From contig NZ_CP059901.1 in the NCBI RefSeq assembly GCF_014127285.1, positions 3,534,001 through 3,598,000 on the forward strand: a DNA stretch of 64,000 nucleotides. Direction: 5' to 3'. Positions 39,376-64,000 of the stretch are shown here, one piece after another. Both the position numbers and the translations under genes were made by a program. Positions within the stretch are counted from its first letter, which is position 1; every line of letters begins with the position of its first letter. The notes beneath the pieces were generated by a model that did not search any database, was not told where the DNA came from, and was given only the letters and a program-made list of their open reading frames with translations. The stretch comes from Mumia sp. ZJ1417. Its GTDB lineage: Bacteria; Actinomycetota; Actinomycetes; Propionibacteriales; Nocardioidaceae.

Positions 39376-40028
39376 GCGCCTCCGACGAACTTCTTGCGGA
39401 GCTTGGCCGGGATCAGGTCGCCGGCCGGCTCGTTGTAGGCGACCGCGACGGGCACGTCGCCCTCGTACGTGACCGACGTGACGCTGGCCAGCGAGCACTG
39501 GCGCTTGCGCGGGTCGTGCAGGTAGCGGCGGCGCTCGACGGTCAGCCGAGCCACCCAGATCGGGAGCTGGTGCGAGACGATGACGGCCTCGTGCCCGCGC
39601 GCGGCGTCGCGCGCGTCGGCCATCGCCTCGAGCATGCGCGCGGCGATCTGCTTGTACGGCTCGCCCCACGACGGCGTGCTCGGGTTGCGCAGCATCCACC
39701 AGACGCTCGGGTGCTTCAGCGAGCCGTCGCCCACGCCGAAGGTCCTGCCCTCGAACTGGTTGCCTGCCTCGATGACCCGCGGATCGGTCGTCACGTCGAG
39801 ACCGAGCGTCTTGGCGATCGGCTCCATCGTCTCCTGCGCCCGCTCGAGCGGGGAGGCGACGAGGTGGGTGATGTCCTCACCGTCGAAGTACTCGGCCCCA
39901 CGCTCGGCCATCTGACGGCCCAGGTCGGACAGGTGGTAGTCGGGAAGGCGGCCGTAAAGGACGCCTGCGGGGTTGTGCACCTCGCCGTGCCGCATCAGGT
40001 GCACGGTCGTACGGTCGCTGCTGCTCAT
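39372..40028 (-). CDS. Histidine phosphatase family protein (phosphoglycerate mutase-like)
   Basis: The product is a 218-residue enzyme with the phosphohistidine motif [12 protein letters not shown], a second active-site Arg in [12 protein letters not shown] and the C-terminal His in [15 protein letters not shown]. The substrate is not evident. In mycobacteria the same position between hemL and resA is held by a phosphoglycerate mutase-like protein (Rv0525), so the linkage is old. Overlaps of four bases with both hemL and resA show full translational coupling. A role in heme or cytochrome synthesis has not been shown as far as I know. Confidence 0.9.
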
Positions 40029-41338
40029 GGGGCCATTGTCGCCGCAGCGGCACGTGCAGCGGGCTCCAGGGCTCGCTCGATGTCCTCGAGCGCGTCGGCA
40101 TCCAGAGCGTCGGAGACGAACCACGCCTCGAACGCGCTGGGAGGTAGGTAGACCCCGTGGTCGAGCATCGCGTGGAAGAACGCCTTGTACGCCGGCTGGC
40201 TCTGGGCCTGGGCGTCGGCGAAGTCGACGACCGGCTCCGTACGACCGAGGAAGACGCTGAACAGGTTGCCCGCGGCCTGCACGACGTGCGGGACGCCGGC
40301 AGCGTCGAGCGCCTTGGCCGCCAGGCCCTGGATCGTGCCCGAAACCTCGTCGAGGTGGGCGTAGACCGCGTCGGTGGCCAGACGCAGCGTCGTCAGCCCG
40401 GCGGTCGTCGCGACAGGGTTCCCGGAGAGGGTGCCCGCCTGGTAGACCGGCCCCTCCGGCGCGAGCTGGCGCATGATCTCCTCGCGGCCGCCGAACGCCG
40501 CCGCGGGGAAGCCGCCGCCCATCACCTTGCCGAAGGTCATGAGGTCGGGCGCCCAACCCTCGTGAGCGCCGTCGAGACCCCAGTGGCCGCTGCGGCTGAC
40601 CCGGAACCCGGTCATGACCTCGTCGGAGACGAAGAGCGCACCGTGCGTGCGGCAGGTCTCGGCGAGGAATGCGTTGAACCCCGGCAGCGGCGGGACCGCG
40701 CCCATGTTGCCCGGCGCCGCCTCGGTGATGACGCAGGCGATCTGGGCGCCGTGCTCGGCGAACGCGGCAGCGACGGCCTCGCGGTCGTTGTACGGCAGCA
40801 CCAGCGTCTGCGCGGTCGAGGCGGAGGGGATGCCCGGCGTCCCCGGAAGCCCGAACGTCACGACGCCCGAGCCGGCCTCGACGAGCAGCGCGTCCACGTG
40901 CCCGTGGTAGCAGCCGGCGAACTTCACGATCAGGTCGCGGCCGGTCCAGCCGCGCGCCAGCCGGATCGCCGACATGGTCGCCTCGGTCCCCGAGGAGACC
41001 ATGCGCACGAGGTCGACCGGTGTCCGAGCGACGATCTCCTCCGCGAGTGCGACCTCGGGCTCGCTGGGCGTGCCGAAGGAGGTGCCTCGTACCGCCGCCT
41101 CGCGCACAGCCTCGATGACCTCGGGGTGCGCATGGCCCAGCAGCATCGGGCCCCACGACGCGACAAGGTCGACGTACGAGTTGCCGTCGACGTCGGTGAG
41201 TCGGGCGCCCTTGCCCTCGCGCATGAAGCGGGGCGTCCCACCCACGGCGCGGAAGGCGCGGACGGGCGAGTTCACTCCGCCCGGCGAGACGGCGCGGGCG
41301 CGGTCGAACAAGGTCTGCGAGATCTCGGAGCCAGGCAC
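40025..41338 (-). CDS. hemL: Glutamate-1-semialdehyde 2,1-aminomutase
   Basis: HemL converts glutamate-1-semialdehyde to 5-aminolevulinate, completing the C5 route begun by HemA (46646-47962). The 437-residue product opens with [20 protein letters not shown]. It has the family signatures [20 protein letters not shown] and [12 protein letters not shown], and the PLP Lys in [16 protein letters not shown] at 41338 gives the usual N-terminus; an ATG at 41368 would add ten residues. The stop overlaps the phosphatase start. Placing hemL at the head of the cytochrome c maturation operon ties heme supply to its use. Confidence 0.95.
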
Positions 41339-41490
41339 CCGGCCATTGTCCCCGACCGGGACAAGCATCCAGATCGGGTGGTCATTTCGGCCCTTCCCTC
41401 GCCAGCAGCCCCGAGATGTGATGCGATGGTGACCGGACGTGGGAACGACGGCCGGTAGCGACCCGAGGTCCCGTCTAGTGTGGAGGCTGA

Positions 41491-41580
41491 GGAAGTGCTG
41501 AATTTTGAGGTGACTGTTAGCCAGATCACCTGCACTTCCCTAAGGTGGGCTCCGAACACGTGGTGGCAACACGTGTCCGG
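41491..41580 (+). promoter_or_regulatory. Structured 5' region of the transglycosylase gene: two hairpins, possible promoter
   Basis: GGAAGTGC (41491-41498) pairs with GCACTTCC (41532-41539). Inside it AGGTGA (41508-41513) pairs with TCACCT (41526-41531). A second hairpin pairs CCGAACACGTG (41552-41562) with CACGTGTCCGG (41570-41580), one mismatch. CACCT (41527-41531) can instead pair with AGGTG (41543-41547), so the first hairpin has an alternative. TAAGGT (41541-41546) also looks like a -10, with TTAGCC 18 bases upstream. RNA switch and protein operator are both possible. Confidence 0.5.
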
Positions 41581-41619
41581 GACATCGCGAGATCGGGCTC
41601 ACGAGGAGTGATGAGGCGA

Positions 41620-43002
41620 ATGGCGGAACGCGACGAGCGCACCGAGCGCGGCGACAAGAGCAGCAGCTGGTGGCAGACGACCGCAGCGCTGCTCCCCTGC
41701 GCGCTCATCGCCGGCGCCTGGGGCGCCGCCGTCGCGATGCCGGGCCAGGGCGGTCCGGTCGACGCCGCCGCCTACACCGCGTACGACGAGGGGTCCCCCG
41801 AGGTCCCCGTGAGCGGCCCCAACCTCCAGGTCACGCCCGGTCAGGACCCGGTCCAGCAGCAGTCACTGAGCCAGGTCGCGGGTCCGCCCGTGGTCTCGGC
41901 CCCCTCGGACATCCCCGCGCCCGCCCTCGCCGCCTACCAGCGGGCCGCCAGCGTCATGGCCGCGACCAAGCCCGAGTGCAAGCTCTCGTGGGAGCTGCTC
42001 GCCGCGATCGGCCGCGTCGAGTCCAACCACGGCCAGTTCGGTGGCGCCACCGTCATGAGCACCGGCGCGACGACGCGCGCCATCATCGGGATCCCCCTCA
42101 ACGGCACCAACAACACCGCACGCATCCCCGACACCGACAAGGGCGCCTGGGATGGCGACGCGGTCTGGGACCGCGCGGTCGGCCCGATGCAGTTCATCCC
42201 GTCCACGTGGACCTCCGTCGGGGTCGACGCCGACGGTGACGGCAAGGCCAACCCCAACAACATCAACGACGCGGCGCTCGGCGCAGCGGTCTACCTCTGT
42301 GTCGGCGGCCACGACCTGAGCACCGACACAGGCGCCCGCGCGGCGCTGATGTCGTACAACCGCTCCACCACGTACGCCGACCAGGTCCTGACGATCGCGC
42401 GCGGCTACGGCTCCGCCAACCCGATCGGTCTGCTCCCGAACGCCCCGTTCCCCGGCTCGCCCTCCCTGCCGCTGGGCCCCCTGGGTCCCACGCCACTCTC
42501 CCCGCTCCCGGGTGGCCCGGGCGCCGGCAACTCACAGCCGACCCCGACGATCGTGAAGCTCACCGTCAAGCCGCCCAAGCCCGTCAAGCCCCCCAAGGGC
42601 AGCCTGACGGTCCAGCCCGGCAAGCCGACACCTCCGCCGACGAAACCGACGGACCCGCCGACCAAGCCGACCGATCCCACGGACCCGACCACGCCGACGG
42701 ACCCGACCGATCCGACCGATCCGACGACGCCGACGGATCCCACCGATCCCACGACGCCGACAGACCCGACGACGCCCACCGATCCGACGCCGACCGAGCC
42801 CAGCACTCCGACGGAGCCGGACCCGACCGACCCGCCGACGACGCAGCCCGACCCCGAGCCCACGGCGACCGAGCTCGCCCAGGTGTTCTGCGCGACGCTC
42901 GGGGTCAGCGGCGAGACGCTCCAGAAGTGCGTCGACGCCTACGTCACGGCGTACGCGAACGGCAAGGAAGCCGCCGAGGCTGCCGCGTCGGCCGCTGTCT
43001 GA
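41620..43002 (+). CDS. Exported lytic transglycosylase with Pro/Thr/Asp-repeat wall-spanning region
   Basis: This 460-residue cell-wall enzyme is expected to cleave glycan strands to anhydromuropeptides. An N-terminal membrane anchor or signal (ALLPCALIAGAWGAAVAM) precedes an MltB-like domain. That domain has the catalytic Glu in LLAAIGRVESNHGQFGG, then AVGPMQFIPSTWTSVGVDAD, ALMSYNRSTTYADQVLTIA and a calcium-type DADGDGKANP loop. After it comes a long Pro/Thr/Asp repeat that could cross the peptidoglycan. The C-terminus ends in a small helix pair with two Cys (VFCATLGVSGETLQKC). ATG at 41620 has GAGGAG 11 bases upstream; ATG at 41611 is too close to it. Confidence 0.9.
   Translation: MAERDERTERGDKSSSWWQTTAALLPCALIAGAWGAAVAMPGQGGPVDAAAYTAYDEGSPEVPVSGPNLQVTPGQDPVQQQSLSQVAGPPVVSAPSDIPAPALAAYQRAASVMAATKPECKLSWELLAAIGRVESNHGQFGGATVMSTGATTRAIIGIPLNGTNNTARIPDTDKGAWDGDAVWDRAVGPMQFIPSTWTSVGVDADGDGKANPNNINDAALGAAVYLCVGGHDLSTDTGARAALMSYNRSTTYADQVLTIARGYGSANPIGLLPNAPFPGSPSLPLGPLGPTPLSPLPGGPGAGNSQPTPTIVKLTVKPPKPVKPPKGSLTVQPGKPTPPPTKPTDPPTKPTDPTDPTTPTDPTDPTDPTTPTDPTDPTTPTDPTTPTDPTPTEPSTPTEPDPTDPPTTQPDPEPTATELAQVFCATLGVSGETLQKCVDAYVTAYANGKEAAEAAASAAV
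42641..42860 (+). repeat. Degenerate repeat encoding PTDPT units
   Basis: Six- to nine-base units such as CCGACGGACCCGACC recur here and encode a run of PTDPT and PTTPTDP within the transglycosylase. The composition is low-complexity. The antisense reading (Gly/Ser/Val-rich) is a shadow. Confidence 0.8.
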
Positions 43003-62087: not shown

Positions 62088-62145
62088 TCCACAGGTCGGG
62101 CGAGCCGCTGCCGACCTGTCACCCCTCTCGCCTAGCGTGTCCGTC

Positions 62146-63546
62146 ATGGCGAGAAGCGCGACGACGTTCCGGTGCAGCGAGTGCGGGTGGACGAGCACGA
62201 AGTGGGTCGGCCGATGTGGCGAGTGCCAGACGTGGGGCACGGTCGACGAGACCGGAGGCCCTGCCACCGCGCGCACCACGCCGACGTCCGTCACCCGAGC
62301 CGCGCGCCCGATCGGGCAGATCGACGTCGAGTCGTCGCGCTCGCGTCCCAGCGGCATCGCCGAGCTCGACCGCGTCCTCGGGGGCGGCTTCGTCCCGGGG
62401 GCGGTGGTGCTGCTCGCGGGTGAGCCCGGCGTCGGCAAGTCGACGCTCCTCCTCGAGGTGGCCGCGCGCTGGGCCCGTGGGCTTGCGACCACTCTCTATA
62501 TCTCCGGCGAGGAGTCGACCGCTCAGATCCGCCTGCGCGCCGACCGTACGCGGGCCGTCCACGACAGCCTCTACCTCGCCAGCGAGACCGATCTCGGCGC
62601 CGTCCTCGCCCACATCGACGAGGTGAAGCCCTCGCTGCTGGTTCTCGACTCCGTCCAGACCATCGGCTCGAGCAGCATCGACGGTGTGCCTGGCGGTGTC
62701 ACCCAGGTCCGCGAGGTCGCCTCGACACTCATCCAGGTCGCCAAGTCCCGCAACATCCCGACCGTCCTCGTCGGCCACGTCACCAAGGACGGCTCGATCG
62801 CCGGTCCCCGCGTGCTCGAGCACCTCGTCGACGTGGTCCTCCAGTTCGAGGGCGACCGCAACACCCGGCTCCGGCTGCTCCGTGCCGTCAAGAACCGCTT
62901 CGGCCCGGTCGACGAGATCGGCTGCTTCGACCTGTCCGAGGAAGGCATCGTCGAGGTCCCCGACCCGACGGGCCTGTTCGTCTCGCGCCACCACCAGCCG
63001 GTTTCCGGCACCTGCATCACGGTGACGATGGAGGGCAGGCGCCCCCTGCTCGCCGAGGTCCAGTCGCTCGTGTCCGCCACCGAGCTCCCCCAGCCTCGCC
63101 GCGCGACGAGCGGGCTCGACAGCTCGCGGATGGCGATGATCCTCGCGGTGCTGTCGCGTCGCTGCGGCCTCGTCCTCGGGCGCAGCGACGTCTATGCGGC
63201 GACGGTGGGCGGGGCACGGCTCAGCGAACCCTCCGCTGACCTCGCGACCGCCATCGCCGTCGCCTCGGCGGCCACCGACACGATCGTCCCCAGCGATCTC
63301 GTCGCGCTCGGCGAGGTCGGGCTGGCCGGCGAGGTCCGGCGGGTGACCCACCTGGGGCATCGCCTGCGCGAGGCCGCCCGCCTCGGGTTCCGGCGCGCGA
63401 TCGTGCCGCGCGACGGCGCCGACGCGACGCCCGACGCACGCAAGGTCCCTGGGTTGTCCGTCGTCGCGGTCGACGACCTCGCAGGCGCGCTCCGCGAGCT
63501 CGGCGTCGGTGCGGGGACCAGCCACTACACTGATCGCAGTCATTGA
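62146..63546 (+). CDS. radA: DNA repair protein RadA (Sms)
   Basis: RadA is a RecA-like ATPase that drives branch migration of recombination intermediates. The 466-residue product has a four-Cys zinc finger ([20 protein letters not shown]), Walker A in [18 protein letters not shown], Walker B in [15 protein letters not shown] and the RadA-specific [20 protein letters not shown] Lon-like C-terminal domain completes it ([20 protein letters not shown]). ATG at 62146 follows TAGCGT (62133-62138) by 7 nt; three earlier codons are rejected. It is followed after 20 bases by disA, an order kept in many Gram-positive bacteria. Confidence 0.96.
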
Positions 63547-63566
63547 ACCAATCTCGCGGGGGAACT

Positions 63567-64000
63567 GTGTCGATCAACGATCGAGCGGGCGGCACGCCGC
63601 CGATCCTGCGGGCGACGCTCGCCTCGGTGGCCCCAGGAACGGCACTGCGCGAAGGCCTCGAGCGCATCCTTCGAGGACGCACCGGCGCACTGATCGTCTT
63701 CGGCCAGGACAAGGACATCGACGCCCTGTCGACGGGCGGCTTCGTGCTCGACGTGCCGTTCACGCCGACCGCTCTGCGGGAGCTCGCCAAGATGGACGGC
63801 GCGATCATCCTCGACAAGGGCGCGACCCGGATCCTCCAGGCGGGGGTCCACCTCATGCCCGACCCGTCGATCCCCACGCACGAGACCGGCACCCGGCACC
63901 GCACGGCCGACCGGGTGGCGAGGCAGACCAACGTCCCCGTCATCTCGGTGTCGGCGTCGATGCACATCATCGCGCTGTACGTCGAAGGCAACCGCCGCGT
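63567..64000 (+). CDS. disA: DNA integrity scanning diadenylate cyclase, 3'-truncated by window edge
   Basis: DisA makes cyclic di-AMP from two ATP and links this signal to DNA state. The window holds 144 codons of its N-terminal cyclase domain. The frame runs open to the window end. Signature segments are seen: [40 protein letters not shown] and [20 protein letters not shown]. They include the DGA and RHR motifs that bind ATP. GTG at 63567 has GGGGGA about five bases upstream, and TACACT (63527-63532) may be its -10. The DNA-binding C-terminal domain lies outside the window. Confidence 0.95.

Follow-up and report, generated by a model that had tools for sequence, protein, structure and literature searches.

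The region upstream of a lytic transglycosylase gene in Mumia, initially annotated as a candidate RNA switch, is most likely a promoter with a palindrome that was misread as a switch. We propose, at a probability of about 0.7, that it holds a lineage-specific sigma-A-type promoter of the transglycosylase gene in place of the sigma-BldN-type promoter of the relatives. This promoter (P2) would consist of TAGCCA at 41518-41523, a 17-bp spacer and TAAGGT at 41541-41546, with a transcription start at about 41552-41555. Its hexamers are conserved in the genus and the arms of the palindrome are not, and both the sigma-BldN-type motif at this locus and the corresponding sigma factor are absent from Mumia. 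We infer that P2 is active and that, within the Mumia lineage, it replaced the sigma-BldN-type promoter in a genus now without a sigma-BldN-type factor.

Locus and palindrome

The window is a 64-kb stretch (3534001-3598000) of the 4.19-Mb single-contig genome of a Mumia strain (Nocardioidaceae), and positions are given in window coordinates. The gene downstream of the stems encodes an SLT_2 lytic transglycosylase (41620-43002, plus strand; start ATG 41620 chosen by conservation), which agrees with the wall transglycosylase assigned to it at first. Its divergent neighbour is hemL (40025-41368, minus strand), and hemB is located past the transglycosylase gene. In our synteny sample of 110 loci, a few of which were second copies from the same genome, hemL was divergent in 100. 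A distance of 22 kb to disA had also been noted, and the start of disA does lie about 22 kb from the region, after radA (62137-63546). We identified disA from its own sequence and not with a profile; in 62137-64000, radA is followed by the start of disA, which is interrupted by the window end. The upstream regions of the orthologues were aligned for six Mumia genomes (the window's own and G001-G005), a small sample (n = 6) from which all counts of conservation and covariation among Mumia were taken. A conserved block, TCGGGCTCACGAGGAG (41592-41609, plus strand), includes the ribosome-binding site; 5 of its 18 positions are invariant, with a mean majority of 0.80.

Stem 1 is exactly the perfect two-tier stem of 8 + 6 bp that had been described. 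On the plus strand, the outer arms GGAAGTGC (41491-41498) and GCACTTCC (41532-41539) form 8 bp, and the inner arms AGGTGA (41508-41513) and TCACCT (41526-41531) form 6 bp. The right outer arm is retained only in the sister species G003. A second stem follows at 41552-41580 (plus strand; arms 41552-41562 and 41570-41580), but the perfect pairing claimed for its 11 bp did not hold, as 10 of the 11 positions pair and 41555/41577 is an A.C mismatch.

Conservation of the putative promoter P2

The -10-like element of the inferred main promoter P2, TAAGGT (41541-41546, plus strand; TAGGGT in relatives), has 5 of 6 bases invariant among the six Mumia. The -35-like element TAGCCA (41518-41523, plus strand) lies within the loop and inner stem of stem 1; its G, C and A are invariant in the same genomes. 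The two are 17 bp apart as aligned here, although the register may be 17 or 18 bp, and the -35 matches at only 4 of 6 positions. Invariant positions amounted to 5/6 in TA.GGT and 3/6 in TAGCCA, against 1/16 in the outer arms and 1/12 in the inner arms. The hexamers therefore have 8/12 invariant positions and the arms of stem 1 have 2/28 (Fisher p = 2e-4, six Mumia). A sigma-A-type promoter is expected to have a TANNNT -10, a -35 placed 16-18 bp from it, and conservation of both in orthologues, and this arrangement was found here. The initial annotation had offered, as the alternative to a switch, a first stem acting as operator around a TAAGGT promoter, and hexamer conservation supports the promoter part. 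No promoter was recovered at the locus by a scan with an E. coli-type consensus at 9/12 matches. In high-G+C actinobacteria, poor matches to the E. coli consensus are common, and the consensus is not defining.

The same layout was found in another genus, g9. Its species G035 and G013 retain CTCTTAACACA...CCGATCCTGACATAGGGTGG in the arrangement TTAACA-N18-TAGGGT, and ATAGGGT is present in both. A stem is possible in G035 and broken in G013, and the hexamers of the two species are identical. Because the hexamers are kept while the stem is lost, the region behaves as a promoter and not as an RNA fold. Overall, the locus is like a sigma-A-type actinobacterial promoter (TANNNT -10) in that TAAGGT or TAGGGT follows a -35-like element by 17-18 bp in six species and a second genus. 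It differs from the type in its weak -35 and in the palindrome straddling that -35, and its promoter function is predicted.

The position of P2 bears directly on what the stems could be. Since stem 1 straddles the -35 of P2, it would act mainly as DNA and not as leader RNA. The conserved -10 directly follows stem 1, which argues against the presence of stem 1 in the transcript. The P2 transcript would be expected to start at about 41552-41555, past the end of stem 1 and where stem 2 begins. By the initial annotation's own criterion, a start downstream of the first stem speaks against the RNA-switch reading, and this is where the best-conserved promoter would place it. Stem 2 lies at the inferred 5' end of this transcript and would be at most a hairpin at the 5' end of the mRNA.

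Possible operator or incidental palindrome

If P2 is the promoter, two readings of stem 1 are left: it may serve a dimeric regulator as operator, with about one chance in three, or it may be an incidental quasi-palindrome. A regulator bound over the -35 of P2 could repress or activate the gene, and the symmetry of the site is what makes such an operator possible. An inverted repeat occurs at the -35 or spacer of P2 in 5 of the 6 Mumia: the nested stem (GGAAGTGC or GGTGA) in the window's own genome and G003, and GGTGGC-N8-GCCACC in G004, G005 and G002. The palindrome is also unusual for this intergenic region, because a nested perfect 8 + 6 palindrome arose in only 4 of 2000 dinucleotide shuffles of it. 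However, the two Mumia groups differ in their half-sites and in how these are placed relative to the -10, and the region occurs just once in the window's genome. GGTGGC-N8-GCCACC occurs in 1-4 copies per Mumia genome, and exactly once in G002; such few copies give no sign of a regulon. A dimeric operator would be recognised by conserved half-sites and register together with further genomic copies, and this combination was not found in Mumia. On this evidence we regard an operator as less likely than not.

That the palindrome has no function has a considerable likelihood, which we place somewhat short of even. It would then have arisen by chance or as a template-switch quasi-palindrome in a fast-evolving promoter. 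Equally good nested palindromes were found at ten separate places within the 64-kb window, and 17 palindrome hits were observed in the window compared with 2-21 across ten shuffled windows. As the window-wide counts match those of the shuffled windows, the 8 + 6 palindrome is not rare at the scale of the window. The arms also turn over rapidly between species. Against a functionless palindrome stand its rarity in the shuffles of the intergenic region and the recurrence of some inverted repeat at the same site in five species.

Search for a conserved RNA structure

The comparison of orthologous upstream regions that the initial annotation had suggested gave no covariation for the stems in the six Mumia. 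All eight outer pairs of stem 1 are formed in the window's own genome and in G003, and 2-3 of the 8 in G004, G005, G002 and G001. The six inner pairs number 6 in the own genome, 5 in G003, 1 in G004, 4 in G005, 3 in G002 and 2 in G001; for the ten pairs of stem 2, the counts in the same order are 10, 7, 4, 2, 3 and 6. G004 has an almost intact left outer arm but has lost the partner arm, so pairing is not the reason why that left arm is kept. In the annotated structure, 6 pairs were changed on both sides versus 5.6 in shuffles, so no covariation signal was seen. The RNAalifold consensus fold of the six upstream regions recovered neither stem 1 nor stem 2. Its energy was not significant against column shuffles (z -1.6, six sequences), and neither were the energies of the subsets (z -0.28, -0.03 and +0.65) or of the P2 leader (z -0.51). 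The whole leader folded no better than its shuffles (z -1.4).

The proposed switching was based on pairing of CACCT (41527-41531) with AGGTG (41543-41547) in exchange for stem 1. This pairing can form, but it is not a mutually exclusive competitor: the fold containing it reaches -6.1 kcal/mol, or -9.2 kcal/mol after refolding all else, versus -21.9 kcal/mol for stem 1. The alternative is far too weak to be a real competitor. No Rfam family was matched, either in the whole window or in the region by itself, and no terminator was found at the region. Stems 1 and 2 leave the ribosome-binding site uncovered. A riboswitch would show a conserved aptamer and covarying stems in orthologous leaders, and the six Mumia leaders showed neither. 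The absence of covariation, consensus fold, Rfam family and terminator, together with the weak alternative pairing, leaves an RNA switch unsupported. The same holds for a new switch class, which had been considered. The comparative test thus removes a false lead.

A transcript from further upstream would change the picture. A possible second -10, TAGTGT (P1; 41476-41481, plus strand), is present in the block TCTAG-GTGGAGG, with no convincing -35. The block holding P1, GTCTAG(GC)TGGAG(GCT), is common to 5 of the 6 Mumia upstreams. If P1 were active, stem 1 would be within RNA, and the balance between stem 1 and another pairing could control the transglycosylase mRNA. The conservation of the P1 box upstream of stem 1 in five Mumia favours such a switch, and so does an alternative helix returned by RNAalifold, AGCCAGATC (41519-41527) with GATCGGGCT (41591-41599), which was paired in 87.5% of the cells of the six-Mumia alignment and had three pairs changed on both sides. 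The 42 paired cells of this helix were equalled by 1 of 80 shuffled alignments, and 41 cells were reached in at least 9 of 80. Since shuffled alignments reach or nearly reach its score, we judged the helix marginal; it is the sole hint of RNA pairing at the locus. Stems 1 and 2 are both unconserved, the long-range helix is near shuffle level with overall fold energies that are not significant, and the CACCT/AGGTG pairing falls short of stem 1 by about 13-16 kcal/mol. With these points and the lack of an Rfam match and of a terminator, a switch in a P1 transcript is very improbable. The segment 41591-41599 adjoins the ribosome-binding site, and so the marginal helix ends nearby. A Mumia-specific RNA in which 41519-41527 alternated between stem 1 and a helix with 41591-41599, and so switched translation of the transglycosylase from a P1 transcript, would be at least as improbable. 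As a separate observation, the complementarity of the two segments is complete in 4 of 6 Mumia, with one compensatory change, and its support is marginal.

Cyclic di-AMP riboswitches in the host genome

Cyclic di-AMP switches are located upstream of wall hydrolase genes in actinobacteria (PMC10117811). This general statement, also made in the initial annotation, is true in the host genome, where we found three RF00379 riboswitches, before other genes than the one studied here. They lie at G000:C1:1572198-1572347 (plus strand), 3099659-3099814 (minus strand) and 2259935-2260097 (minus strand), and precede two NlpC/P60 genes and one Rpf-type transglycosylase gene. The locus resembles this system (ydaO-yuaA, RF00379) in preceding an actinobacterial wall hydrolase gene. 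It differs from it in having no sequence or structure match, no terminator and no conserved fold. When the region was scanned directly, RF00379 gave no match even at E 10, and the genome-wide matches were all elsewhere. The occurrence of such switches before wall hydrolases, including the three in this genome, is all that favours a ydaO-type riboswitch in the stem region. The empty scan refutes it, barring an unrecognised divergent form, and we give this reading a negligible chance.

A sigma-BldN-type promoter motif in the relatives

We then return to the preferred reading, a sigma-A-type promoter that took the place of another one. Among 95 hemL-divergent upstream regions, 72 contained GTAAC-N16/17-CGTT[AG], compared with 0.03 expected, and the motif is thus found before this gene in most Nocardioidaceae and Kribbella. 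A weight matrix found a variant of the motif in most of the remaining upstreams, and all Mumia upstreams scored at or below shuffle level. This motif is identical to the consensus stated for sigma-BldN promoters, CGTAACN16CGTTGA (PMC2375139). CGTAAC-N16/17-CGTTG had zero copies in all six Mumia genomes and 4-13 copies in each of ten relatives. The sigma-BldN-type motif was seen before orthologues such as L027, L031, L038 and L043, in genomes within G013-G230.

In the relatives examined, another copy of the motif precedes a DUF5667 gene, which lies directly behind an ECF sigma gene, and this pair is located about 10-15 kb from the transglycosylase gene. The closest NCBIfam family of the ECF sigma is BldN, with a score below the family cut-off. 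The factor was found in 13 of 13 relatives at 51-100% identity, a count that includes the genome from which the query was taken. The same factor was absent from the six Mumia, in which the best match had about 33% identity. The BldN-family model TIGR02952 had matches at E <= 1e-20 in 6/6 relatives versus 0/6 Mumia. Mumia is thus without both the cis motif and the trans factor. In most relatives, the orthologous gene in the same synteny has the motif of a sigma-BldN promoter (CGTAAC-N16-CGTTGA, with an ECF sigma and its DUF5667 partner), whereas the Mumia locus has no motif and Mumia no such factor. Genus g9 has the sigma factor but no motif at the transglycosylase gene, which indicates that the promoter can change first. 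The sister genus of Mumia, with g9 among the candidates, was not resolved in a HemL tree.

Other readers of the GTAAC boxes were considered. MtrA was rejected, as the published M. tuberculosis motifs differ. Corynebacterium SigD has the -35 GTAAC in common, but its -10 is GAT, which makes BldN the better fit.

The locus therefore appears to be a natural case of regulatory rewiring, in which a syntenic wall hydrolase gene is without its sigma-BldN-type promoter in a genus without the sigma factor. In Mumia, the transglycosylase gene appears to have shifted to a housekeeping-type promoter. It can now be tested whether sigma-BldN, which belongs to Streptomyces development, has a wider role in wall maintenance in non-sporulating Propionibacteriales.

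At the Aeromicrobium loci L035, L040, L041, L087 and L098, and also at L025 and L026, the orthologous transglycosylase gene has another short inverted element, GTAACATC(T/G)GGTTAC or GTAACATCGGTTTAC, close to its ribosome-binding site.
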